From: Nitrospirota bacterium
Lineage (GTDB): Bacteria > Nitrospirota > Nitrospiria > Nitrospirales > Nitrospiraceae
Direction: 5' to 3'
NCBI GenBank assembly: GCA_016219645.1
Contig: JACRLR010000026.1
Coordinates: forward strand, 1-64,000
DNA: 64,000 bases
Position numbers and translations under genes: made by a program. The stretch's first letter is position 1; each line of letters starts with the position of its first letter. The notes under the pieces are model-generated. The model had not been told where the DNA came from and searched no databases. It saw only the letters and a list, made by a program, of their open reading frames with translations. Shown here piece after piece: positions 21,505 through 34,181 of this stretch.

Positions 21505-22431
21505 TTATGGACGAGCGGCAAGCATACGGGCTGAAAGAAGAATCGTCAGGCGGCTGTGGAGTGCGGTGAGATCATCGAGCAGTTCGATCTTCGTATCACG
21601 AAGGCGATCTCCGAAGGCGAGGGCGCCCTGGCCACCCACGCCAACAGACCAGCGGGTGGCAAGCTTCTCAAGCTCCTTGATTTGTTGGAGCGTGGCGGCC
21701 TCCGACTTTATCTCAGTGAGAGAGAGAAGCACGAGGTCGGGCTTGATCTTCTCGCAGAAGGTCGCGAGGTCTGAGCTGGGAAGGTCGGAGCCGAGGTAGT
21801 AGACGTGGCAGCCTTTGGTCGCTGCAATATATGCCACAGCCTGGGCGCCGATCTCATGTGTTTCGCCCTCCGGGCAAGCGATCAGGACTCGTGGACCGAA
21901 TTCATTCACCGGAAGTTGATTCATGACCGAAAACAACTTCTGTTGGATGATCTTCGTCACATAGTGTTCGACCCCAACAGTCAACTGGCCTTGATGCCAG
22001 AGGTCACCGACTCGACGCTGCAATGGAAGCAAGATCCGCTGGACAGCTTCCTCAAATGGAACAACTGCCACTGCGCCATTAAGCCTCCGTTCGAACCCTG
22101 CCTTATCGAGCGGCTCAAGCGATCTAACCAACTCATCCAACAGACGCTCATGGGGATGCTGCCCTTCCGCAGACACTGGCGTTGCCACGCGCATGCGGGC
22201 GATCAGTGAATCGCTTCCCTCCTCTGCGAGCGCGCCGATCGTGGCTCCTTGCTCCATCTGTGCTTTCACAAACCGTAGGAGCGCAACCTCTTCATCGCTA
22301 TATTCTCTATAGCGGTTAGAACTCCGTGAAGGTTTGACAAGTCCATATCGCCTCTCCCAGACCCGAATCACGTCCCTCGAAAGCCCAGTCAGTTTCGCAA
22401 CTCTATGAATTCTATGAGTATTCATACTCAT
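21505..22431 (-). CDS. carH: CarH/LitR-type MerR-family B12-dependent photoreceptor regulator
   Basis: A 308-residue regulator with a MerR helix-turn-helix (IHRVAKLTGLSRDVIRVWER, then RRYGLVKPSRSSNRYREY), a four-helix bundle with LWHQGQLTVGVEHYVT, and a cobalamin-binding Rossmann domain with ETHEIG. The W-x9-EH pattern and the lower-ligand His are the hallmarks of CarH, which binds adenosylcobalamin, represses DNA as a tetramer in the dark and falls off on illumination. Start at 22431 or 22425. It is transcribed away from the gene island it probably controls. Light dependence is inferred from family motifs. Confidence 0.88.
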   Translation of the reverse strand: MSMNTHRIHRVAKLTGLSRDVIRVWERRYGLVKPSRSSNRYREYSDEEVALLRFVKAQMEQGATIGALAEEGSDSLIARMRVATPVSAEGQHPHERLLDELVRSLEPLDKAGFERRLNGAVAVVPFEEAVQRILLPLQRRVGDLWHQGQLTVGVEHYVTKIIQQKLFSVMNQLPVNEFGPRVLIACPEGETHEIGAQAVAYIAATKGCHVYYLGSDLPSSDLATFCEKIKPDLVLLSLTEIKSEAATLQQIKELEKLATRWSVGVGGQGALAFGDRLRDTKIELLDDLTALHSRLTILLSARMLAARP

Positions 22432-22533
22432 AACATCATTCTATTATGACGTCCAATGTTTGTCAAATATTTTACTGAAAAACACTTGACACATTGGACA
22501 TAATGCTTTATACATTAGACATACATTGGACAC
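22414..22533. promoter_or_regulatory. Divergent promoters with repeated ACATTGGAC operator boxes
   Basis: Plus-strand promoter: TTGACA (22486-22491), 17-base spacer, TATACA (22509-22514). Minus-strand promoter for carH: TTGACA (22461-22466), 17-base spacer, TAGAAT (22438-22443). ACATTGGACAT at 22491-22501, ACATTAGACAT at 22512-22522 and ACATTGGACAC at 22523-22533 are direct repeats 21 and 11 bases apart; an inverted copy lies at 22451-22459 in the carH promoter spacer. ATGAGTAT-TC-ATACTCAT (22414-22431) is a palindrome over the carH start. Confidence 0.7.
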
Positions 22534-22550
22534 TGTATAAGGAGGCGATC

Positions 22551-22847
22551 ATGGCAAGAGCGTTTCTGGAGAGGACAACTGAGAAATATCCGGCGCATTC
22601 AACCGCCTCTTCTGCCGTTCAGTATCAATCGACCTGCATCAGATGCGGTGGACTCATGGTGACCGATTTCTCTATGGATGTACTGTTTTGTCTCGACGAG
22701 ACGGAGTTTGCCGCGATTCGCTGTGTCCAATGTGGTGAGATTGTCGACCCCGTCATTCTGCGCAACCGAGGAGTTCAGCAAGGGCCGAAGACAACTCAGC
22801 TTGCAGGAAGGATGTTGCCAACCAATTGCGTGACAAAAGGTCGATAG
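22551..22847 (+). CDS. Small zinc-ribbon protein (first gene of the CarH-facing island)
   Basis: A 98-residue protein with CIRCGGLMVTDF and RCVQCGEIVDPVILRNR, two CxxC knuckles forming a zinc ribbon. Very similar motifs occur in the proteins at 27894-28286, 55149-55319 and, more distantly, 45837-45986. Start ATG at 22551 follows TATAAGGAGGCGATC; the longer frame from 22494 would begin inside the promoter. The role is unknown; a regulatory or adaptor function is possible. Confidence 0.75.
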   Translation: MARAFLERTTEKYPAHSTASSAVQYQSTCIRCGGLMVTDFSMDVLFCLDETEFAAIRCVQCGEIVDPVILRNRGVQQGPKTTQLAGRMLPTNCVTKGR

Positions 22848-22905
22848 ACCTGTGTTCAACCAACGAGGGTAGTCCTGGTGTTCCTAAACCAACGGGGGGT
22901 GTCCC

Positions 22906-23871
22906 ATGAGGAGTTACAGAGTGCTTCAGGTCGGATTGGGGGTGGCATTGGTGGCAGGAGCCATCTCCGTCGTCACAGCGGCGGACATGCCAAGCAGCGA
23001 TAAGGACATGGTACTGATACCAAAGGGCGAGTTCACCATGGGGAGCAACGAACATTCAGATGAAGCCAAGCACCAGGTCGTGCTCGATGCCTATATGATC
23101 GACAAGTTTGAAGCGTCAAACAAGCGGTACAAGGAATTTATGAAAGCCACCGGTCATCCGGCGCCGGCCTATTGGGATGATCCTCGGCTCAGCAAAGCTG
23201 ATCAGCCGGTGGTCGGCGTGAGTTGGACTGACGCAAGCGCGTTCTGCAAGTGGGAAGGCAAGCGGCTCCCAACGGAGGCGGAGTGGGAGCGAGCAGCCAA
23301 GGGTCCGCAAGGCGACAACCATTATCCCTGGGGCCATACACTCGACCCGAAGAAGGCCAACTATGGGCAGAACATTGGCCGGACGACCCCTGTCGATTCC
23401 TATCCCGAAGGAGTGAGCGGGTTTGGAGTTTACAACATGGCAGGGAACGTCTTCGAATGGGTCGAAGATTGGTATGACTTGAAATACTATAAGGAGAGCC
23501 TTGCCTTGAATCCACCCGGCGCCGAGAAGGGTTACAACTTTGCCAATCAAGGCCCGGTGAGGGTGCTGCGCGGCGGTTCCTGGCTTGCACCGGCAACCTC
23601 TCTTCATACCAGCCATCGGTTCTGGAATCAGCCCGAGAATAACTCCTATGGGGTCGGCCTGGGATTCCGGTGTGCCAAGTCAGTCCAGCAGGTTTCGGAT
23701 GACGCCATGCAAGCAGGACGCGACGCGTTCATTCAGGCATTAATCGCCATGGGTGTAGAGAAGCACGTCGATGCGATGGCCTCCATCGAGAAGGCGTTGG
23801 CTGCGGAGCCTGGCAACAAGGAATACCTGGCGACACGCGATCTGATCAACAAGAGCATGAAGAAGAAATAG
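22906..23871 (+). CDS. Secreted SUMF1/FGE-domain protein 1
   Basis: A 321-residue protein with a signal peptide (VLQVGLGVALVAGAISVVTA) and a SUMF1 domain: MVLIPKGEFTMGSNE, GKRLPTEAEWERAAKG, YNMAGNVFEWVEDWY, VRVLRGGSW and GLGFRCAK. True formylglycine-generating enzymes have two reactive Cys after RGGS; here there is none, so sulfatase activation is unlikely. A C-terminal helical stretch of about 70 residues looks like a TPR-type tail. It acts outside the cytoplasm. ATG 22906 follows GGGGGGTGTCCC. One of three such proteins in the island. Confidence 0.88.
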   Translation: MRSYRVLQVGLGVALVAGAISVVTAADMPSSDKDMVLIPKGEFTMGSNEHSDEAKHQVVLDAYMIDKFEASNKRYKEFMKATGHPAPAYWDDPRLSKADQPVVGVSWTDASAFCKWEGKRLPTEAEWERAAKGPQGDNHYPWGHTLDPKKANYGQNIGRTTPVDSYPEGVSGFGVYNMAGNVFEWVEDWYDLKYYKESLALNPPGAEKGYNFANQGPVRVLRGGSWLAPATSLHTSHRFWNQPENNSYGVGLGFRCAKSVQQVSDDAMQAGRDAFIQALIAMGVEKHVDAMASIEKALAAEPGNKEYLATRDLINKSMKKK

Positions 23872-23883
23872 GTCAAGCGCACG

Positions 23884-23905
23884 CGGGGGGGCATCGCGCC
23901 CCCCT
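23884..23905 (+). terminator. G/C-run hairpin between two island genes
   Basis: A run of seven G and a run of six C flank a short loop. No T tail follows, so it is more likely an mRNA-stabilising or attenuating hairpin than a full terminator. Confidence 0.35.
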
Positions 23906-23937
23906 CCGAGGGCCGACGTCGTGACGGGAGGACTGAG

Positions 23938-25473
23938 GTGAGTAAGTCTGAACCCATGGTGGCAAGCAATTCGACGTCGAACCCCGCTGCGATTCCTGAG
24001 AAGTCCCTCATTCTTCTCACAGGGGCCAGCGGGTACGTCGGCGGGCGACTCCTGCCGTCGTTGGAGAATGCGGGGTACCGCCTGCGCTGCCTGGCCAGGC
24101 ATCCAGAAATTCTCAAGCCGAAGGTCAGCCCCTCAACGGAGGTGGTCGCGGGTGACGTCCTGAATCGCCCGAGTCTCGACGCCGCAATGCGCGGGGTCGA
24201 TGTGGCCTACTACATGGTTCACTCCATGAGTTCGACCGGCTCTTTTGAAGAGACAGACCGGCAGGCGGCACGGAACTTTAGCGAAGCGGCGAAGGCAGCG
24301 GGTGTCAAGGGCCTCATCTATCTGGGGGGCTTGGGGAGCGATGACGAGGAACTCTCAGCCCATCTGCGCAGTCGGCACGAGGTCGGAGATATCTTGCATC
24401 AGTCGGGTCTGCCCGTTTGTGAATTTCGCGCGGCGGCCGTAATTGGGTCCGGCAGCGCCTCGTTCGAGCTGATTCGCGCGCTGGTGGAGCGCCTGCCGAT
24501 CATGCTCACCCCAAAATGGTGCAAGGGGAAAACGCAGCCCATCGCGATTGACGATCTGCTGGACTACCTGATCGAAGCGCTGCGAATACCCCTCTCCCAC
24601 TACCGCATCTACGAAGTCGGCGGGGCGGACCAAGTTTCCTACGCCGAGATGATGCTCGCATATGGGCGGCAACGCGGGCTAAAGCCTCTGATCATCCCCG
24701 TGCCGGTTCTCACCCCTTGGCTGTCTGCTCTGTGGCTGGGGTTGATCACGCCGGTATACGCACGTATTGGGCGGGCGATTATTGAGAGCATCGTCCATGT
24801 CACGGTGGTACGGGACAATGCCGCACTCACAACCTTTTCTGTACGTCCGATGGGAATCGATGAAGCCATTCACCGAGCCTTAGCCCATGAAGAGAGGCAT
24901 TTCGCCGCCACGCGCTGGTCCGATGCACTCTCCTCATCGGGCAAGGTGCCGTCGTGGGGGGGGGTACGGTTCGGCACGCGTCTCGTCGATTCGCGGACGT
25001 TGACCGTCGACGCGCCTCCTGAAGTCGTCTTCAAATGCATTGAGAGAATCGGCGGGGACAATGGCTGGTACGCATGGAACTGGCTATGGCGGGTGCGCGG
25101 ATTCATCGACCTGCTCGAAGGGGGGGTGGGCTTGAGACGAGGGCGGCCGTTTGCCACCACCCTGCGCGTCGGGGATACGGTCGACTCATTTCGTGTTGAG
25201 GCAATTGAGTCGAACCGCCGTCTGCGGCTCAAATCCGAGATGCATTTGTACGGGCGGGCGTGGCTGGAATTCGAGGTGACTGGTACAGGTTCTTCAACAA
25301 CGATCCGGCAGACCGCAATCTTTGATCCAGTGGGGCTGATCGGGCAGACCTATTGGTATACGCTCTACGTCCCGCACCAGTTCGTGTTTAGTGGGATGCT
25401 GCGGGGAATCGCAACTGCCACGTTGCAGGAAATGAGTAGACCTCAAACGGTTGGAGCTCCGCTCTCTTCTTGA
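23938..25473 (+). CDS. SDR-family NAD(P)-binding protein with C-terminal DUF2867 domain
   Basis: A 511-residue fusion. Residues about 22-310 are an atypical short-chain dehydrogenase/epimerase (LILLTGASGYVGGRLLPSLE, YYMVHSMSSTG, GVKGLIYLGGL). The rest is a DUF2867/START-like lipid-binding-type domain (RTLTVDAPPEVVFKCIERIG, GWYAWNWLWRVRGF, GRAWLEFEV). Such fusions are often annotated as NAD(P)H-binding or YbjT-like; substrate unknown. Start GTG at 23938 is preceded by GGGAGGACTGAG. In light-induced LitR operons of other bacteria SDR proteins recur, which fits this position. Confidence 0.8.
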   Translation: MSKSEPMVASNSTSNPAAIPEKSLILLTGASGYVGGRLLPSLENAGYRLRCLARHPEILKPKVSPSTEVVAGDVLNRPSLDAAMRGVDVAYYMVHSMSSTGSFEETDRQAARNFSEAAKAAGVKGLIYLGGLGSDDEELSAHLRSRHEVGDILHQSGLPVCEFRAAAVIGSGSASFELIRALVERLPIMLTPKWCKGKTQPIAIDDLLDYLIEALRIPLSHYRIYEVGGADQVSYAEMMLAYGRQRGLKPLIIPVPVLTPWLSALWLGLITPVYARIGRAIIESIVHVTVVRDNAALTTFSVRPMGIDEAIHRALAHEERHFAATRWSDALSSSGKVPSWGGVRFGTRLVDSRTLTVDAPPEVVFKCIERIGGDNGWYAWNWLWRVRGFIDLLEGGVGLRRGRPFATTLRVGDTVDSFRVEAIESNRRLRLKSEMHLYGRAWLEFEVTGTGSSTTIRQTAIFDPVGLIGQTYWYTLYVPHQFVFSGMLRGIATATLQEMSRPQTVGAPLSS

Positions 25474-25544
25474 TAAGTCGATGAAGCGCCATGCGGAAAT
25501 GTTGGAACGGTTGTTGTCGATGGGTCAATTGTGACGTAGGAGCA

Positions 25545-25916
25545 ATGATGATACACGGCAAGATTCTTCTTCCAGGGATTGTGCTGATTGCGCTACTCGG
25601 GGCTTCACCCCTCCGGGCTGATCCCATCGATACGGCCAGGCATCCACAGCCAGATAAGATCCAGACGGTCCATCAGGCTAATCATGAGGTGGACCAGGCG
25701 TGGGAGATCTATCATCGGGCGGCGTTGGGCGGAACGGTCGCGTCCCCTGCCCTACAGGCCGAAATCGAGCAGCACCTCCATGAAGCCAGAACTCTCGTCA
25801 GCCAGGCGCAGGAGGCAGCCGAGCGGGGAGATAAGCGTCAGGTGCAGCGTCTCGTGAACCAGGTGAAAGTCCATGCCACCAAGGCCATCGAGGGAAGCAA
25901 GGAGCAGAAGAAATGA
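25545..25916 (+). CDS. Small periplasmic helical protein (SmbP-like topology)
   Basis: A 123-residue protein with signal peptide (ILLPGIVLIALLGASPLRA) and paired helices such as IEQHLHEARTLVSQAQEAAE and VQRLVNQVKVHATKAIEG. The helical hairpin layout recalls the SmbP-like protein at the left edge, though it has fewer His. The start at 25545 (ATGATG) follows GTAGGAGCA; the longer in-frame ORF from 25491 is Cys/Trp-rich and unlikely. Its TGA overlaps the next gene's start (ATGA). Confidence 0.65.
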   Translation: MMIHGKILLPGIVLIALLGASPLRADPIDTARHPQPDKIQTVHQANHEVDQAWEIYHRAALGGTVASPALQAEIEQHLHEARTLVSQAQEAAERGDKRQVQRLVNQVKVHATKAIEGSKEQKK

Positions 25917-26758
25917 CGCAAGGCCTGAGGAGAAGAGGAACTCGCTGGAGCACTATTGTTGCGATGATGGCCCTCGCCTCTGCCGTTGCCATTGCGCCTG
26001 TCACAGCAGCACCGGCGATTCCCAAAGAGGTTGACCCGGTCCCCATGGTGACGATTCCAGCTGGAGAATTCTTGATGGGGAATCCAGAAGGAAAAGGGCG
26101 GGCAGATGAGTGGCCGCAGCGATCTGTGTACCTCGACGAATTTGCGATCGATCAAGTCGAAGTGACGAATGAGCGATACCTGGTGTTTGTCAAGACCACC
26201 GGCCACCGGAGCCCTCCGAACTCCTATGGCACTGGCCCGCTCCTGTCCGTGAAGGGAATTGAACAGCTTCCGGTCGTGCAGACCACCTGGTATGACGCCA
26301 AGGCCTATTGTAGTTGGGCTAAGAAGCGGCTCCCGACGGAAGCGGAATGGGAAAAGGCCGCTCGCGGCACCGATGGTCGTCTCTTTCCCTGGGGCAATGA
26401 ACCAGGGACGTCAAAGCGCGCGAACTTTGACCGTGAGTGGGAAGAGGAGAAAACCTTGCATCCAGTCGGATCCTTGCCAGGGGGAGACTCACCCTACGGG
26501 GTGAAGGACCTATCTGGTAATGCTCGAGAGTGGGTGCAGGATTGGTATGACGCTGACTACTACCAGCTTGCGCCGGATCGGAACCCGCAGGGTCCTGAGA
26601 AAAGAGGCGTGGTTCGATCGATTCGCGGGGGGTCCTGGCATAGTCCGATGTCGGACATCACGACGACGGCGCGCGGGCGAGGCGGATTCGCGCTGCAGAC
26701 CCATGGTACAGGCTTTCGCTGTGCACGGAGTCTCGCAGACCAGACCCAGCAGAAATAG
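25913..26758 (+). CDS. Secreted SUMF1/FGE-domain protein 2
   Basis: A 281-residue protein with a signal peptide (TIVAMMALASAVAIAPVTA) and a complete SUMF1 domain: MVTIPAGEFLMGNPEG, KRLPTEAEWEKAARGTDG, VKDLSGNAREWVQDWYD, SIRGGSWHSP and GTGFRCARS. The two catalytic Cys of formylglycine-generating enzyme are absent after RGGSW. It overlaps the preceding gene by four bases, so the two are translationally coupled. A hairpin about 115 bases downstream may end this part of the transcript. Confidence 0.87.
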   Translation: MTQGLRRRGTRWSTIVAMMALASAVAIAPVTAAPAIPKEVDPVPMVTIPAGEFLMGNPEGKGRADEWPQRSVYLDEFAIDQVEVTNERYLVFVKTTGHRSPPNSYGTGPLLSVKGIEQLPVVQTTWYDAKAYCSWAKKRLPTEAEWEKAARGTDGRLFPWGNEPGTSKRANFDREWEEEKTLHPVGSLPGGDSPYGVKDLSGNAREWVQDWYDADYYQLAPDRNPQGPEKRGVVRSIRGGSWHSPMSDITTTARGRGGFALQTHGTGFRCARSLADQTQQK

Positions 26759-26873
26759 ACGGCGACAAGGTGAAGCGATGAGACCAGAGGACCGCAGCAG
26801 AGATAAGGAGGCCGGTTTCTTTTCCCGATCTTGGCAGGCGCCGCGAATCCTCGCTGCGTCTCCCGCTGAGGTA

Positions 26874-26908
26874 GATAGGCCCCTTCCTACACCCCGGAGG
26901 GGCCTATC
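26874..26908 (+). terminator. Hairpin terminator
   Basis: GATAGGCCCCT pairs perfectly with AGGGGCCTATC over 11 bp across a 13-base loop. No T run follows, but the stem is strong; it may split the island into two transcripts. Confidence 0.45.
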
Positions 26909-26976
26909 TGCTCGGTGAGTCACCGAGACTGGGGACGAGAATACATGGGGCTGTCGGCGGTGAGAAGGAGGACAAT

Positions 26977-27114
26977 GTGGACCTGATGATCTTCTGCGCA
27001 ATGGCACTGGTGACGCTGCGCTGTTGGACACGTGTCTCGCGATGGAGAATGGTAAAAGCACGTGTGCAATTCACCCACGGCTTATCGCTGCGTCGCCTAA
27101 AGAAGCGTCTCTGA
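26977..27114 (+). CDS. Small basic protein, 45 residues
   Basis: GTG at 26977 follows AGAAGGAGGACAAT, an excellent ribosome site. The product starts MDLMIFCAMALVTLRC and ends in a very basic LSLRRLKKRL, so it could be a single-span membrane peptide. No homologue is recognised. It occupies most of a 484-base interval between larger island genes; the rest of that interval holds the hairpin at 26874 and nothing else I can support. Confidence 0.45.
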   Translation: MDLMIFCAMALVTLRCWTRVSRWRMVKARVQFTHGLSLRRLKKRL

Positions 27115-27242
27115 TCCCGTCGTCGCACGGAACCGGCGGATGCAGGAGGCCAGGCGCGGATAATGGAGCATTCTTTATACCGCCACCGAGGTCGGATTCA
27201 GGAGCGAACCATCGCAAGAGCCGAAACAGGAGGGTTCGACCC

Positions 27243-27821
27243 ATGATGAGGCAAATAACACAGGCATGCGCGACGGTGCTTCTACTTGCCGCCGGACTGT
27301 CCTGCCCCGACATAGCCGCCGCACATGGAGTCAGCAGCGGAGAAGATGATCCTTGCCTGCGCCGGGTCGGTGAACACCTGGTCCATTTCAGCGCGTATCA
27401 GCCGCAATACCAACTGAACGATCAATACTGCACGGACATTCCTAAGGAAGGCGACACCTTCCTGGTCGTGGACCCGGCGCTGCGTAACGAGCCGGTCGGG
27501 ATGCGGGTCGTGAGGGGAAACGGAAGGGATGAAACCCTCGCTGAGATTGTGGCAGATCTGCGTCCGAGCCATCACCAGGACGGCGTGCTCCGTGGCGAAG
27601 TGCGACTGGACGAAGGGCTGTATACGGTTATTATTGCGGCGGAGAAGCAGAATTTGATGCGACGCCCGCAGTACCTCTTGCGGGTCCATATGACCGACTA
27701 CCAGAAGCTGATGGGCTCCGTGGGAGTACCACTGTTGGGTGTGTTGCTGGCGGGATGGCTCGGATACAAACTCTTTCGATCGAAATGGCTGCGGGATTGG
27801 TGGGTCGCCCTTCGGTCATAG
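27243..27821 (+). CDS. Hypothetical secreted/membrane-anchored protein
   Basis: A 192-residue protein with a signal peptide (ACATVLLLAAGLSC...AAAHG), a globular middle with three Cys-containing segments (DDPCLRRVGEHL, NDQYCTDIPKEG) and one C-terminal membrane span (VGVPLLGVLLAGWLGYKLF) with a basic cytoplasmic end. I do not recognise the family. The start at 27243 (ATGATG) follows GGAGGGTTCGACCC; the longer frame from 27024 is low-complexity and lacks a ribosome site. Topology suggests it faces the periplasm. Confidence 0.7.
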   Translation: MMRQITQACATVLLLAAGLSCPDIAAAHGVSSGEDDPCLRRVGEHLVHFSAYQPQYQLNDQYCTDIPKEGDTFLVVDPALRNEPVGMRVVRGNGRDETLAEIVADLRPSHHQDGVLRGEVRLDEGLYTVIIAAEKQNLMRRPQYLLRVHMTDYQKLMGSVGVPLLGVLLAGWLGYKLFRSKWLRDWWVALRS

Positions 27822-27893
27822 GGAGTGGCCCCGACCCGCGAGTCCATGGTTCAACGAAGTTCAGCGAGTTCTACGAACGATTGAAGCGTAGGT

Positions 27894-28286
27894 GTGACCA
27901 ACCACGGAGCTTGTCGCCCTGTGGCTTTGAACGGGAGGCCTGACAAACGCCCACGCTCCGTGTCGCAAGTCAGCGGAGGCAGCTGTACGCGTTGTGGGGG
28001 GTTGATGGTCACAGAGTATTATATGGACCTTCAGGACGATACAGGTCACATCGGCATCACCGGTATTCGTTGCTCCAGCTGTGGCGAGGTGATTGACCCG
28101 GTCATTCTTCGGAACCGATTGAACCAGACCCCTGATCTCTTGCATGTCGTGAAACGAAGGACATACTCTCAACGGGTGGGTCACGGTGAGTCAGATGGGC
28201 AAAATCAGAAGGGCCGTGGAATGACAGACAGGCTGATGATTGACCACTTGTTGGCTCCCCCCCGTGGTGGTCCTGACAGGGAATGA
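27894..28286 (+). CDS. Zinc-ribbon protein, paralogue of 22551-22847
   Basis: A 130-residue frame with CTRCGGLMVTEYYMDLQD and RCSSCGEVIDPVILRNRL, almost the same knuckles and linker as the first island gene. The N-terminal 25 residues are Arg-rich and low in structure. GTG at 27894 is the likeliest start, with a weak ribosome site. The C-terminal 40 residues are poorly structured and end five bases before the next SDR gene. Confidence 0.65.
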   Translation: MTNHGACRPVALNGRPDKRPRSVSQVSGGSCTRCGGLMVTEYYMDLQDDTGHIGITGIRCSSCGEVIDPVILRNRLNQTPDLLHVVKRRTYSQRVGHGESDGQNQKGRGMTDRLMIDHLLAPPRGGPDRE

Positions 28287-28290
28287 AACC

Positions 28291-29208
28291 GTGCAGATTG
28301 TTGTGACTGGCGGAACAGGATTCATCGGTCGGCCCTTATGTGCCTCGCTCTGTCAGGAGGGCCATCGGGTCACGCTCCTCACGAGAAGAAGAGAAGAGGC
28401 ACTACGTGTGTGTGGCTCAACCGTCACGGCCGTCGAGTGGAATGGCCGAGAGGCGGGAGCCTGGGAGCGCTGTCTCGAAGGTGCCGATGCTGTCGTCAAT
28501 CTTGCTGGTGCGCCGATTGCTGATGGCCGCTGGACCAATGCCCGCAAACGAGTCCTTGCCGAAAGCCGGGTCCTCACCACTCGTCTTCTGGTAGAAGCCA
28601 TGTCGCGTCGCACTTCGAAACCCCGTACGCTGGTCAGCGCCTCCGGTATCGGCTACTACGGGGCCGGTGACGATCGTGTTCTGGATGAAGGTGCCGCGCG
28701 CGGCCGAGGCTTTCTGCCCGATCTCTGTCTTGCGTGGGAAGCGGAGGCACTTCGGGCTGCAGAGTTCGGTGTGCGAGTCGTTCTATTGCGGACTGGAATG
28801 GTGCTCGAACAAGACGGCGGCGCCTTGCCGAAGATGCTGTTGCCATTCCAGTTCTTCGCGGGCGGCCCGATCATGCCGGGAACTCAGTGGGTATCGTGGA
28901 TCCATCGACGTGATCACATCGGTCTGATCCAGTGGGCACTCACGACGCCGAGTATCTCCGGCCCCGTGAATGCGGTAGCTCCCGAGCCTGTGACGATGAA
29001 TCGGTTCTGTAACGTACTCGCACAAGTTCTCCACCGACCATCCTGGCTGCCCGTTCCAGGCTTCGCGCTACGCATGGCGCTGGGCGAACTCGGGACGCTC
29101 ATGACCACGGGCCAACGGGTCAATCCGGCGAAGGCGCTCTCCATGGGCTATGTCTTTCACTATCCGAAACTGGAACCAGCTTTACAGGCGATCCTGACGA
29201 AGGGGTAG
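28291..29208 (+). CDS. TIGR01777-family epimerase (SDR39U1-like)
   Basis: A 305-residue NAD(P)-binding protein: IVVTGGTGFIGRPLCASLCQ, DAVVNLAGAPIADGRW, SASGIGYYGAGDD and WEAEALRAAEFGVRVVLLRTG. The C-terminal domain has PVNAVAPEPVTMNRFCNVL. This SDR subgroup often sits beside photolyase and LitR-type regulators in other bacteria; its substrate is not established. Start GTG at 28291 is chosen because it begins the Rossmann strand directly, after CAGGGAATGAAACC. Confidence 0.88.
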   Translation: MQIVVTGGTGFIGRPLCASLCQEGHRVTLLTRRREEALRVCGSTVTAVEWNGREAGAWERCLEGADAVVNLAGAPIADGRWTNARKRVLAESRVLTTRLLVEAMSRRTSKPRTLVSASGIGYYGAGDDRVLDEGAARGRGFLPDLCLAWEAEALRAAEFGVRVVLLRTGMVLEQDGGALPKMLLPFQFFAGGPIMPGTQWVSWIHRRDHIGLIQWALTTPSISGPVNAVAPEPVTMNRFCNVLAQVLHRPSWLPVPGFALRMALGELGTLMTTGQRVNPAKALSMGYVFHYPKLEPALQAILTKG

Positions 29209-29220
29209 AGGAGGTGCGTC

Positions 29221-29292
29221 ATGGCTCCAGTGATCGGTCTATTTGAATCCACTCTGTTTGCGGGACTCTGTGCAAGTGGACTCGCATATTAA
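29221..29292 (+). CDS. 23-residue hydrophobic peptide
   Basis: ATG at 29221 is preceded by GGAGGTGCGTC, an excellent ribosome site. The product, MAPVIGLFESTLFAGLCASG then LAY and TAA, is hydrophobic enough to enter the membrane. It lies between the epimerase and the PDZ gene. No family known. Confidence 0.4.
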   Translation: MAPVIGLFESTLFAGLCASGLAY

Positions 29293-29317
29293 TTGTCATT
29301 CACAAGGAGGTAATCAC

Positions 29318-29815
29318 ATGATGACCAAGAAGATGCGCGTCACAACCACTGTATTGCTGAGCGTGCTGACTGTCATGCTGTGTCAGATTTTAGGGAAGAC
29401 GAATGAGGTGTGGGCTGTTGAGGGGCAGGACAAACCAGAGAGTCAGGCCCAGCGACCGCATGGAGACGATGCCAACATACCGAAGGGCGTGATCGGCGTG
29501 TCGCTGCATGTTGGGGCGGACCGTATCGGGGATCCGGCTTCGCTATACGTGGCCCATGTGTATCCAGCTGGTCCTGCACAGCAAGCAGGCCTTAAGCACG
29601 GAGACGAAATCCTGACGGTGAACGGTGAGGCGGTCACCGGCAAGACCTATGAACAGGTCATACAGATGGTGCGAGGAGAAGCGGGGACCGCAGTGAAACT
29701 CGGCACCAAGGGCGAAGATGGCATCCGTGAACTGTCCATCACCCGTGTCGCAAGCGAGACTCTCTATAAGGACCAAAAGGGCCAGATGGGATCGCATGGC
29801 AGTCCAGCTCGATAG
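29318..29815 (+). CDS. Secreted PDZ-domain protein
   Basis: A 165-residue protein with an N-terminal signal or anchor (VTTTVLLSVLTVMLCQILG) and one PDZ domain: GVIGVSLHVGADR, VYPAGPAQQAGLKHGDEILT, VNGEAVTGKTYEQVIQMVRG. It has no protease domain, so it may be a binding adaptor for periplasmic partners. ATG at 29318 follows CACAAGGAGGTAATCAC, a near-perfect ribosome site; an upstream frame from 29243 overlaps the small peptide and is not needed. Confidence 0.8.
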   Translation: MMTKKMRVTTTVLLSVLTVMLCQILGKTNEVWAVEGQDKPESQAQRPHGDDANIPKGVIGVSLHVGADRIGDPASLYVAHVYPAGPAQQAGLKHGDEILTVNGEAVTGKTYEQVIQMVRGEAGTAVKLGTKGEDGIRELSITRVASETLYKDQKGQMGSHGSPAR

Positions 29816-29824
29816 GATGCAGTC

Positions 29825-29962
29825 ATGAAGCAGACTGGAACTGGGGGAGATATTCAGTTGCTGGGAGGATCACTCCTGATCATCGGTACCGCAGATCTCG
29901 TCTTCATCGATGAGTCCACGTCCGAAAACAGGCCGACGCCGGCGCCACAGGAGTTACTCTAA
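29825..29962 (+). CDS. 45-residue protein coupled to the photolyase gene
   Basis: ATG at 29825 follows AGGATGCAGTC. The product contains a short hydrophobic run (IQLLGGSLLIIGTADLVFI) and a Pro-rich acidic tail. Its TAA overlaps the photolyase ATG as TAATG, a sign of translational coupling. No family recognised. Confidence 0.5.
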   Translation: MKQTGTGGDIQLLGGSLLIIGTADLVFIDESTSENRPTPAPQELL

Positions 29963-31407
29963 TGCGCGGGATTGTCTGGTTTAGACGGGATCTGCGGCTC
30001 CACGATCAGCCGGCCCTGACCGCGGCCTGTGAGGCCTGCAGCGAAGTGATCCCGCTCTTTGTGTTCGACGAACCTCTCTTGCAGTCCCATGTCTTCGGCT
30101 CCGCCTGCGTGAATTTTATGCTTGGATGTCTTCAAGATCTGGCATCGTCGTTGCGTAATGGAGGGCTGGCGCTGCAGTGGCGTCGCGGCGAGCCGGTGGA
30201 AGAAATCGTTGAAGCCACGCGCGAATGGCAGGCCGATGTCGTCTATTGGAATCGTGACTATGAGCCAAGAGCCATTAATCGAGACCGTGCCGTCGAACAA
30301 CGATTGGCGCAGATCGGTGTCATCGTCCGGACGTTCAAAGACCATGTGGTCTTCGAGGCCGAAGAAGTTCGAAGCGCGACCGGCGAGCCGATGCAGCGGT
30401 ATAGCGCCTATCGTGCACGCTGGTGGACGAAGTGGCAAGCAGTGAAACCGACCGCCCTTCCAGTTCCCCGGGTCTTGAGGGCTAAAAAGGCTGCCTCATT
30501 GCCCATTCCGCCTCCGTTGCCCACCGCAAGCGACTTGGGATATCAGCCGGTGACGCTCTGGATCGAGCCGGGAGAGCGAAGCGCTCAGAAACGATTACGT
30601 TGCTTCGTCGAAGACCCCATTCACGCCTATATCACGGGGCGAAATCTTCCCGCTGTCGACGGCAGTTCGATTCTCTCGCCTCACCTTCGATTCGGGACCC
30701 TATCGGCCCGCGCCGCGGTACATGCGGCCCTGGCGTCGTTGGGACAGGGCAGACGCGTCTCTCGTCCCGATGTCTTCACCTGGATCGACGAATTAGTCTG
30801 GCGGGAATTTTTTCAGCAGGTCCTGGCGGCTTTCCCCCGTGTCGTCGACGAGCCATTCCGCCAGGTTCCGGCACCAGCTCCACGTGCGCCTGGCACCGAA
30901 CGCGATCGATTCTATCAGGCTTGGTGCGAGGGTAAGACCGGCGTTCCGATCGTGGACGCGGGCATGCGCCAACTGAACCAGACCGGATGGATGCACAACC
31001 GTGTTCGGATGATTGTCGCCTCGTTTCTCATCAAAGATCTGCGGATTGACTGGCAGAGCGGCGAGTGGTACTTCATGCAACGCCTCATCGATGCCGACGT
31101 CGCGGCCAACAACGGCAACTGGCAATGGTGCGCCTCGACCGGCACGGATGCGATGCGAGGGTACAGGATTTTCAATCCCCTGTTGCAGAGCAAGAAGTTC
31201 GATCCGAAAGGCGAGTACATCCGGAAGTATGTACCGGAGCTTGCGGCCGTTCCGACTGACCGGATCCATGCGCCACATCTGATGACCCATGACGAACAGG
31301 CTCTGGCCGAATGCCGCACTGATATAGACTATCCTTCGCCCATCGTGGATCACCGGCAAGCCCGCGAGGAATATTTGGCCCTCGGCAGACTACAGAAGGC
31401 GAGATGA
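29962..31407 (+). CDS. phrB: Deoxyribodipyrimidine photolyase (class I CPD type)
   Basis: A 481-residue photolyase that repairs UV-induced pyrimidine dimers using FADH- and blue light. The N-terminal antenna domain starts MRGIVWFRRDLRLHDQPAL. The FAD domain carries WREFF, GKTGVPIVDAGMRQLNQTG, WMHNRVRMIVASFLIKDL, GEWYFMQRLIDADVAANNGN and RIFNP. All typical residues of active photolyases are present. It is followed with a 4-base overlap by the TudS-DUF1722 gene, a pairing also found as phr and ybgA in enterobacteria. Confidence 0.96.
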   Translation: MRGIVWFRRDLRLHDQPALTAACEACSEVIPLFVFDEPLLQSHVFGSACVNFMLGCLQDLASSLRNGGLALQWRRGEPVEEIVEATREWQADVVYWNRDYEPRAINRDRAVEQRLAQIGVIVRTFKDHVVFEAEEVRSATGEPMQRYSAYRARWWTKWQAVKPTALPVPRVLRAKKAASLPIPPPLPTASDLGYQPVTLWIEPGERSAQKRLRCFVEDPIHAYITGRNLPAVDGSSILSPHLRFGTLSARAAVHAALASLGQGRRVSRPDVFTWIDELVWREFFQQVLAAFPRVVDEPFRQVPAPAPRAPGTERDRFYQAWCEGKTGVPIVDAGMRQLNQTGWMHNRVRMIVASFLIKDLRIDWQSGEWYFMQRLIDADVAANNGNWQWCASTGTDAMRGYRIFNPLLQSKKFDPKGEYIRKYVPELAAVPTDRIHAPHLMTHDEQALAECRTDIDYPSPIVDHRQAREEYLALGRLQKAR

Positions 31408-32357
31408 CGACCGCGCCCCTCCGTCTTGGGATCAGCCGTTGTCTCCTCGGAGACGAAGTCCGATTCGATGGGGGGCATAAGCGGGACAGTTTTCTGACCG
31501 ATGTGCTTGGCCGCTATGTGGAGTGGGTCCCGGTCTGTCCGGAGGTAGAGGCAGGACTGGGCACCCCTCGCGAGGCGATGCGGCTGATCGGCGATCCTCA
31601 AAATCCCCGGCTCGTGACGATTAAGAGCGGAATGGATCACACGCGCGCACTGGAAACATTGACCAAAGATCGTATCGAGGAACTTGAGGGCTTGGATCTA
31701 TCCGGATACGTCTTTAAGAAGGGCTCGCCGAGCTGCGGCATCGAGAGAGTCCGAGTCTACAATGAGGATGGGATGCCCAGCCGGAACGGGGTCGGGCTGT
31801 TTGCGCGGGCCTTCATCGAGCAGTTTCCACTGATTCCGGTCGAGGAAGAAGGGAGGCTTTGCGATTCGACGCTGAGAGAGAACTTTATCGAACGGGTCTT
31901 CTGTTACCGACGCTGGCAAGACCTCGTGCAGAGCGGCGTCACGAGGCAGGCGCTGGTGGAGTTTCATACGATCCACAAGTATTTACTCTTGGCCCATCAC
32001 CCGCAACAATGCGAGGCGCTTGGGTGGCTGGTTGGGCAAGCGGAGCGCCACCCCCCGAAGGAGCTTGCACTTCGGTATGGCGATCTGTTCATGAAGGCCC
32101 TGGCGGTGAAGGGGACGGTGCGAAAGCACGTGAATGTGCTTCAACATATTCTCGGATATTTCAAGGAGCGACTCAGCGCATCCGAGAAGGCCGAGCTGTT
32201 AACTGTGATCGGCGATTATCATCGGGGGCTCACGCCCTTGATTGTTCCTCTGACACTGATCAAGCACTATGTTCGAATCTTTGACGTGAGTTATATTCGC
32301 GAGCAGGTGTATCTCAATCCACATCCGAAGGAGCTTATGTTACGCAATCACGTGTAG
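31404..32357 (+). CDS. TudS-DUF1722 fusion (RudS-type tRNA 4-thiouridine desulfidase)
   Basis: A 317-residue protein. Residues about 1-150 are a DUF523/TudS domain: GISRCLLGDEVRFDGGHK, PVCPEVEAGLGTPR and KKGSPSCG supply the three Cys for a [4Fe-4S] cluster used in desulfuration. Residues about 190-310 are DUF1722 (HTIHKYLLLAHHP, KHVNVLQHILGYFK). Fusions of these domains (RudS) have been described as removing sulfur from 4-thiouridine in tRNA. s4U is the main near-UV chromophore of bacterial tRNA, which gives a sensible link to the photolyase. Function here is inferred from family. Confidence 0.85.
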   Translation: MTTAPLRLGISRCLLGDEVRFDGGHKRDSFLTDVLGRYVEWVPVCPEVEAGLGTPREAMRLIGDPQNPRLVTIKSGMDHTRALETLTKDRIEELEGLDLSGYVFKKGSPSCGIERVRVYNEDGMPSRNGVGLFARAFIEQFPLIPVEEEGRLCDSTLRENFIERVFCYRRWQDLVQSGVTRQALVEFHTIHKYLLLAHHPQQCEALGWLVGQAERHPPKELALRYGDLFMKALAVKGTVRKHVNVLQHILGYFKERLSASEKAELLTVIGDYHRGLTPLIVPLTLIKHYVRIFDVSYIREQVYLNPHPKELMLRNHV

Positions 32358-32387
32358 ATCTTCTTGTCTGAGGAAAGGAGTGTGCTG

Positions 32388-32897
32388 ATGGCAACTGTTA
32401 TACGGGGAGTAATTCTTGTGGGACATGGGGGCATTCCCAAGGGCTGCCCGCAGGAGTTAATCACGAAACTGAAACGCTTAGAAGCGCAGCGGCGGGCGGC
32501 GGGCGCACCGATGTCGGCAGAGGAACATGAACTGGATACGAGAATCCGCCGATGGCCGAGAACACCCGAGACGGACCCCTATCAATCGGGACTCGAGGCA
32601 GTGGCTGCTGAGTTGCGAGCCAACCTGGGCAATGTGCTCTTTGCCGTGGCCTACAACGAGTTCTGTGCCCCGACCTTGGAAGAATCGGTGGAAGAGCTGA
32701 TCAAGAAGGGCGCGACCCACATCACCGTAACGACAACGATGTTTACGCCCGGCGGTTCTCACTCGGAAGTTGAGATTCCTGAAATCCTCGGTCATCTGCG
32801 GCCGCAGCATCCGGAGGTCGAACTCCGCTACGCCTGGCCGTTCGATCTGACGCTTGTTGCGAACACCTTGACGGAACAGATAAAGCGCTTTTCCTGA
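32388..32897 (+). CDS. CbiX/sirohydrochlorin chelatase-like protein
   Basis: A 169-residue protein of the CbiX-fold: VILVGHGGIPKGC with the N-terminal His and TMFTPGGSHSEVEIPEIL with the second His, the pair that binds metal in short cobalt/iron chelatases. An insertion of about 35 residues after the first motif is unusual. It could insert Co (B12 route) or Fe (siroheme) or only deliver metal. Start ATG at 32388 follows GAAAGGAGTGTGCTG; an upstream TTG at 32364 is less likely. In the same co-directional island as the B12-dependent regulator. Confidence 0.75.
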   Translation: MATVIRGVILVGHGGIPKGCPQELITKLKRLEAQRRAAGAPMSAEEHELDTRIRRWPRTPETDPYQSGLEAVAAELRANLGNVLFAVAYNEFCAPTLEESVEELIKKGATHITVTTTMFTPGGSHSEVEIPEILGHLRPQHPEVELRYAWPFDLTLVANTLTEQIKRFS

Positions 32898-32975
32898 ACA
32901 GGATCGTGGGGAAGCAGCAATAGCAAGCAAGTCTATGATGGGCCGACCGGTGAATACAGGGCAAGGAGGAGAGGC

Positions 32976-34181
32976 ATGGGAGTGAGGCAAAGCGAGCAGA
33001 TGCGGTTGCGTGCTCTCGGTTTGCTGGTGGCTATCACGTTCGTGGTGTGGGTCGCAGGCCCGGCCCAGGCGCAGCAGAAGAAGATCACCGGTGAAGATGG
33101 GGCGCCGATGGTGCTCGTGCCGGCGGGGGAATTTACCATGGGGAGCAACGATGGTCGTGGCGATGAAACGCCCGTCCATCAGGTCTATCTCGATGCCTAT
33201 TACCTCGACAAGTATGAGGTGACGGTCGGGCAGTACGCGAATTTTCTGAAAGCCACGGGCTTTAACGGGCCGCCGATGTGGGCGACCATGGGCCAGCCGT
33301 CCCATCAGAAGCGCCCGATCGTGAATGTCGATTGGTCGGATGCGAGTAACTATTGCGAGTGGGCCGGCAAGCGGCTGCCGACGGAGGCGGAATGGGAGAA
33401 AGCGGCGAGGGGGACGGATGGGCGTATCTATCCCTGGGGCAATGAACCTCCCAATACGCTCCGGGCGAACTATGGGCAGGAGAAGTGGAACAACCATACC
33501 GCGCTGGTGCCGGTGGGGCAATTGAAAGACGGCAAGAGCCCCTATGAGATCTATGATCTGGCGGGGAATGTCTGGGAGTGGGTAAGCGACTGGTATGACC
33601 CGGACTATTACGCAACCAGCCCCCCTCAGAACCCGAAGGGGCCGGAAAATGGTAAATACAGAGTGTTACGGGGCGGCTCGTGGGACCTCGCTCCGGAGCA
33701 CCTGCGATCCACGCGCCGGGATTTCAATATACCGTTGGCCCCCACCTATGAGTCACCGGCCTATCGGAACTTCAACAGCGGGTTCCGCTGTGCGAAGAAT
33801 CCAGGGCTGGCTGACCCCGGGGGACTAATGACATTGAGTCCGGTTCCGGCCGATTATGCCGACAAACATATGCCGGCTGGCTGGTGGACAGATACTAATA
33901 TCATCGAGGAGGGAAGGCAGATTTATTCCCAGGAGGGCTGCCGCAGTTGCCATAAGGACGGCAAACCGGTAAAAAGTGGGGGAGGGCTTCGTGACCCAAA
34001 AAACACCAGCCGTTTCTCAGACAGCTACTGGTTCTGGCGAGTGGCGGAAGGAGTTCCAAAGACAAGCATGAAGGCCTGGAAGTCGTTCCTCTCAGAAGAG
34101 CAGATCTGGCAGGTGATCGCGTTCGTGCATCAGTTCTCGCATGGGGGGAAACCCTCCGAACACACGGATTACAAACCCTGA
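32976..34181 (+). CDS. Secreted SUMF1-domain protein fused to cytochrome c
   Basis: A 401-residue protein: signal peptide (LGLLVAITFVVWVAGPAQAQ), a SUMF1 domain (MVLVPAGEFTMGSNDGRGDE, GKRLPTEAEWEKAARGTDG, VLRGGSWDLAPE, NSGFRCAKNPG), then from about residue 290 a monohaem cytochrome c with EGCRSCHKDG and a likely Met ligand in PKTSMKAW. No catalytic FGE Cys pair. Haem attachment places it in the periplasm. It might pass electrons while the SUMF1 part binds a partner. ATG 32976 follows GCAAGGAGGAGAGGC. Last co-directional gene of the island. Confidence 0.87.
   Translation: MGVRQSEQMRLRALGLLVAITFVVWVAGPAQAQQKKITGEDGAPMVLVPAGEFTMGSNDGRGDETPVHQVYLDAYYLDKYEVTVGQYANFLKATGFNGPPMWATMGQPSHQKRPIVNVDWSDASNYCEWAGKRLPTEAEWEKAARGTDGRIYPWGNEPPNTLRANYGQEKWNNHTALVPVGQLKDGKSPYEIYDLAGNVWEWVSDWYDPDYYATSPPQNPKGPENGKYRVLRGGSWDLAPEHLRSTRRDFNIPLAPTYESPAYRNFNSGFRCAKNPGLADPGGLMTLSPVPADYADKHMPAGWWTDTNIIEEGRQIYSQEGCRSCHKDGKPVKSGGGLRDPKNTSRFSDSYWFWRVAEGVPKTSMKAWKSFLSEEQIWQVIAFVHQFSHGGKPSEHTDYKP

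Follow-up and report, generated by a model that had tools for sequence, protein, structure and literature searches.

The window analysed here, a stretch of 64,000 nucleotides from a Nitrospirota bacterium, contains a gene for a regulator of the CarH type and, in the intergenic region between this gene and its divergent neighbour, a group of short repeated boxes. This raises the question whether the boxes are the operator of the adjacent regulator and, if so, which genes and which signal they would connect. Four exact copies of the box ACATTRGAC, which occurs in the two forms ACATTGGAC and ACATTAGAC, are located inside 81 bp of the carH intergenic region. The original prediction had described three direct copies on the plus strand, and measurement from the sequence gives the same number with the same start-to-start spacings of 21 and 11. 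It had also placed an inverted copy within the carH promoter spacer, where it is found by exact match, and had claimed that the plus-strand boxes overlap and follow the plus promoter, with which the coordinates of hexamers and boxes agree. The features of the locus are as follows.

21505..22431, minus strand: carH-type gene, 308 aa, with a MerR HTH and two B12-binding domains
22443-22438, minus strand: -10 element TAGAAT of the carH promoter, from a consensus promoter search
22449..22459, minus strand: inverted unit ACATTGGACGT (TnnACG) in the carH promoter spacer, 93% column identity in 23 loci; contains the inverted box ACATTGGAC (22451-22459, exact match)
22460..22470, minus strand: unit ATATTTGACAA (TnnACA), which holds the carH -35 TTGACA; read from the sequence, TnnACA in register in 66/72 loci
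22466-22461, minus strand: -35 element TTGACA of the carH promoter, from a consensus promoter search
22486..22491, plus strand: divergent -35 element TTGACA, read from the sequence and invariant in 23 loci
22491..22501, plus strand: unit 1 ACATTGGACAT, overlapping the divergent -35, 97% column identity; contains box 1 ACATTGGAC (22491-22499, exact match)
22502..22511, plus strand: AATGCTTTAT, a degenerate unit of 10 bp that separates unit 1 from unit 2, read from the sequence
22509..22514, plus strand: divergent -10 element TATACA, read from the sequence, 96% column identity
22512..22522, plus strand: unit 2 ACATTAGACAT, overlapping the divergent -10, 91% column identity; contains box 2 ACATTAGAC (22512-22520, exact match)
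22523..22533, plus strand: unit 3 ACATTGGACAC over the expected transcription start, 86% column identity; contains box 3 ACATTGGAC (22523-22531, exact match)
22551..22847, plus strand: divergent gene for a 98-aa CxxC (zinc-ribbon-like) protein, with an AGGAGG ribosome site at 22540
22551..34181, plus strand: presumed target run of 13 co-directional genes, annotated by domain searches
29962-31407, plus strand: DNA photolyase gene within the 13-gene run

The box cluster is real and goes beyond chance. When the 130-bp intergenic segment was resampled 200,000 times with a Markov model, no sample had more than two exact boxes. On both strands of the 3.65-Mb genome ACATTRGAC has 30 exact matches, compared with 14 for the reversed control pattern; 26 of the 30 lie outside the operator region, and a fifth exact copy is located within the next coding sequence. 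When one mismatch is allowed, the pattern is not enriched over the entire 64-kb window (22 found, 18.9 expected), and the enrichment of the boxes is thus local. By number alone, the bare TnnACA motifs of the intergenic segment (7, with one pair 11 bp apart) are not significant; the argument is carried by the longer box and its conservation.

Published CarH operators consist of 11-bp direct repeats of the form nnnnTnnACAn that overlap a -35 or -10 element (PMC9304148). If the box is extended by one base, to ACATTRGACA, position 5 is T and positions 8-10 are ACA, so that it carries the TnnACA core. Direct repeats of this core in an 11-bp register are present on both sides of the intergenic region: units 2 and 3 (22512-22522, 22523-22533) abut as contiguous 11-mers, and on the carH side (22449-22470) the -35 hexamer TTGACA is itself a TnnACA repeat and is followed, exactly 11 bp downstream on the minus strand, by the inverted box. 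The core of this inverted box reads TnnACG in the window and TnnACA in most relatives. The resulting layout is that of two facing repeat arrays, one for each divergent promoter, whose repeats overlap both -35 elements and one -10. The assignment of the boxes to the CarH type of operator is therefore upheld by the TnnACA core, by the 11-bp direct-repeat register and by their location on the -35/-10 elements of both promoters.

Some details of the arrays deserve mention. The plus-strand array has three full units, the first two of which are separated by the 10-bp degenerate unit, and boxes 1 and 2 are spaced by 21 bp rather than 22; mapped CarH operators that contain degenerate units exist (PMC9304148). 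Only two clear units are present on the carH side, fewer than in most mapped operators. The stricter form of the CarH repeat, nAnnTnnACAn (PMC8156234), does not describe the plus-strand units, all of which have C at position 2; the later consensus nnnnTnnACAn does not demand A at this position (PMC9304148). Both promoters have a 17-bp spacer, and the carH promoter, with 11/12 consensus matches, is the best promoter match of the region. Note that the carH -10 is only about 6 bases away from the start codon (22431-22443); the carH mRNA may be leaderless or begin at the third codon.

The product of the carH-type gene matches the Pfam models MerR_1, B12-binding_2 and B12-binding, all above the cut-offs, and the structure of Thermus thermophilus CarH (5c8d) at 1.4e-33. 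The key AdoCbl residues of the Thermus protein are W131, E141, H142 and H177 (PMC11796333), and in the alignment to this protein the AdoCbl residues are kept (GxxW, Wx9EH, GExHExG); GxxWx9EH is present in 60 of the 61 distinct full-length orthologues. The NCBIfam CarH model NF052513 gives 143.5 bits, which is below its curated equivalog cut-off of 400, yet it is the best match in the library. Because the score falls under this cut-off, 'CarH-type' is the safe name for the protein.

The original prediction had, beforehand, made its reading dependent on conservation of the boxes in orthologous intergenic regions. The pattern is indeed kept at most of the 72 distinct carH loci from family, order and class that were compared (taken from Nitrospira MAGs, Nitrospira moscoviensis and genomes across the phylum), and it is matched more weakly by loci outside the family. 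An alignment of 23 loci gives a column identity of 86-97% for the boxes; the two spacers reach 64-66% and the flanks 39-52%. According to a spacing script that takes the best match within an offset range (for box 3, offsets around one or two turns) and hence leans to regular spacings, the carH -35 repeat and the inverted box are 11 bp apart in 66/72 loci, box 1 and box 2, scorable in 58 loci, are 21 bp apart in 51 of these and 22 bp apart in 5, and box 2 and box 3 are separated by 22 bp in 48 loci and by 11 bp in 8, the window among them. An unrestricted scan of 36 loci also has its spacing peaks at 21, 22 and 11 (7 and 9 arise from overlaps) and finds 5.7 boxes per locus versus 0.3 in shuffled sequence. 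Both in the window and in L045 box 3 follows directly after box 2, which is one 11-bp unit fewer than in most relatives. This sequence comparison suggests that a unit was lost in the lineage of the window, with the direction taken from the majority state and not from a tree.

We scanned 32 genomes of the genus, some of them incomplete, with three operator patterns. The operator is present at the carH locus in 21 of the 22 genomes that have a carH match, and the full operator set is present in none of the 10 genomes without carH (0/10). Within the genus the matches fall on carH loci and on duplicated carH/CxxC-gene loci, accompanied by a few unrelated single matches. The exceptional genome (G006) has only a carH remnant, the B12-binding half without the DNA-binding domain (L043, around 8001), and neither the operator nor the first FGE-like gene of the run; its carH locus is possibly decayed or misassembled. 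The same FGE-like gene is found in 21/22 genomes with carH versus 0/10 without (Fisher 2e-7, relatedness ignored). Operator-like matches in three carH-less genomes were rejected: those in G013 (L121) and G020 (L184) resemble coding sequence, and the one in G005 (L116) is an isolated promoter match that lacks boxes 2 and 3. The carH copies of two duplicated loci (L136, L138) have decayed; the operator boxes and the CxxC gene are kept there, and a 5-bp insertion places box 2 out of phase with box 1 by half a helical turn. This phase shift in duplicates with a decayed carH (n=2) is suggestive.

A second operator was sought in the own genome by tandem TTNGACA, by TTGACACATTRGACA and TATACATTRGACATA with ≤3 mismatches and by triple TnnACA, and apart from the present locus none of these searches rose above the controls; the triple-TnnACA search gave one single match, equal to the control count. 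A one-mismatch match on contig C67 was discarded as an operator, as it is really the promoter of a tRNA-Val gene. This promoter with TTGACACATTGGGCA (L083 1501-1515; G000:C67:151879-151893) is kept in 7 genomes of the genus; the match is one base off the first box of the operator and is followed by no further boxes. A link to carotenoids was likewise rejected: the two PF00494 (phytoene/squalene-synthase-type) genes of the genome are located on other contigs and, judged by their neighbours, look like squalene/hopanoid-type loci. As there is no second operator by these searches and the PF00494 genes are on other contigs, control of carotenoid genes is not indicated.

The presumed target is instead the 13-gene run that starts with the CxxC gene. 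In addition to the photolyase it encodes, among others, a DUF523-DUF1722 protein, a CbiX-like protein, a PDZ protein, two NAD-binding oxidoreductases and three FGE-sulfatase-like proteins. A consensus search detected no strong plus-strand terminator and no internal promoter in the run, and the 13 genes presumably form one transcript. The FGE-sulfatase-like proteins are encoded at 22906-23871, 25913-26758 and 32976-34181, the last one being fused to a cytochrome c domain. The CxxC gene adjoins carH in most relatives; its 98-aa product has no match in Pfam or NCBIfam and no relatives in the plasmid collection. It is one of two related small CxxC proteins in the run (22551-22847, 27894-28286) with the motif CxRCGGLMV...CGExxDPVILRNR, the second of which also is without a Pfam or NCBIfam match. 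At six loci (L013, L021, L022, L027, L035 and L037) a different small protein, starting with M-A-G/E-K-x-R-Q-Y-L, is encoded opposite carH and the operator is unchanged; L035 and L037 have a second carH beside the CxxC gene.

The anatomy and register of the repeats, their overlap with the promoters, their conservation and confinement to carH loci, and the residues of the AdoCbl site are all observed here. On this basis we are confident that the region 22438-22533 is a double operator of the adjacent CarH-type B12 light sensor, which would serve dark repression of both promoters and relief by light. Binding by this particular CarH, its oligomeric state, the repression and the light response would then follow the studied CarH proteins by analogy. 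In the dark, AdoCbl-loaded CarH would oligomerise. On the divergent promoter it would occupy the three full 11-bp repeats and the degenerate unit that extend over the -35, the -10 and the start, and on its own promoter the two repeats that cover the -35 and the spacer; RNA polymerase would thereby be blocked both ways. Light would break the Co-C bond, upon which CarH would disassemble and detach from the DNA, so that both carH and the photolyase-containing run would become expressed. Coverage of the promoter DNA by a tetramer with repression in both directions, as originally predicted, would be in agreement with this model.

MerR-family proteins are often activators, and this suits a reading in which CarH binds the boxes and activates like a classical MerR protein; the AdoCbl site alone would equally fit a sensor of B12 status, in which case CarH would report AdoCbl status or the redox state. 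We regard such a function as unlikely. A classical MerR activator has a dyad in a lengthened spacer of 19-20 bp, whereas both spacers here have the normal 17 bp and the repeats are direct and lie on or beyond the -10, which favours repression over MerR-type activation. The gene run moreover includes a photolyase, a light-requiring enzyme, and the studied CarH proteins that bear these residues are light-released repressors (PMC9304148, PMC8156234).

Since the tie between CarH and the boxes is drawn from sequence, one could also assign the boxes to some other regulator that by coincidence is encoded or conserved in the same genomes. However, both the core and the 11-bp register of direct repeats correspond to CarH, and the array is present at carH loci across the class and gone where carH is gone, which makes a different regulator very improbable. 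The least probable explanation, to which we give hardly any weight, is that the likeness reflects promoter conservation only, that is, TTGACA/TATACA hexamers plus chance. The boxes do overlap both -35 elements and one -10, and the tRNA-Val promoter contains TTGACACATTGGGCA in 7 genomes, but conservation also reaches 86-93% in box 3 and the inverted box, which do not belong to the hexamers, the spacing of box 2 and box 3 shifts by a whole 11-bp unit, and genomes without carH miss the pattern.

If the boxes are taken as a CarH-type double operator, the locus may have a wider meaning. Nitrification is inhibited by light, and for the comammox organism Nitrospira inopinata the authors propose a role of gene regulation in recovery and urge molecular work (PMC9797979). 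We see about even chances that Nitrospirota nitrifiers and their relatives sense light via a B12 photoreceptor whose sole linked target is a photorepair/stress run and not a carotenoid pathway, that the array evolves by whole 11-bp units, and that the circuit could contribute to the unexplained gene-level response behind light-inhibited nitrification. We found no description of CarH in nitrifiers in the open-licence literature, which is weak evidence as most subscription journals were outside this search. A conserved single-locus operator of the CarH type would provide a specific and testable light-response circuit in these bacteria, and the dozens of natural operator variants, with unit-sized length differences and half-turn insertions, offer material for studying how CarH reads DNA.

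The operator of T. thermophilus CarH has three 11-bp direct repeats, and those of Bacillus megaterium have four repeats or three plus one pseudo-repeat (PMC9304148). The Nitrospirota window shares with both the TnnACA core, the 11-bp direct repeats and the overlap with -35 or -10; as in Thermus, a -35 TTGACA lies inside a repeat (here on the carH side), and as in one of the Bacillus arrangements three full units are combined with one degenerate unit (PMC9304148). It differs from both by two facing arrays on divergent promoters, by a 10-bp degenerate unit inside the array, by C at position 2 and by a presumed target without carotenoid genes. In Myxococcales, the CarA/CarH operators comprise five mixed units over ≈55 bp, and Sorangiineae have sites in a divergent crtI-carH intergenic region (PMC9304148). 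Both groups thus combine full with degenerate 11-bp units on the promoter and share a divergent carH arrangement, whereas the targets are carotenoid genes there and photolyase and stress-type genes in the Nitrospirota run. The class II LitR sites of Pseudomonas (TGTACA-N12-TGTACA) are located over the -35 and after the start (PMC9758184). There, too, a repressor of the LitR/CarH family acts on light-inducible genes of the photolyase type (PMC9758184), but it is released by a LOV protein and not by its own B12, and core sequence and spacing are different. Operators of this kind are already known, and in myxobacteria they also comprise degenerate units and divergent arrangements. As far as the open-licence literature shows, what is new is the setting in Nitrospirota and nitrifiers, the deep conservation, the facing arrays and a presumed single-locus photolyase target without carotenoid genes.
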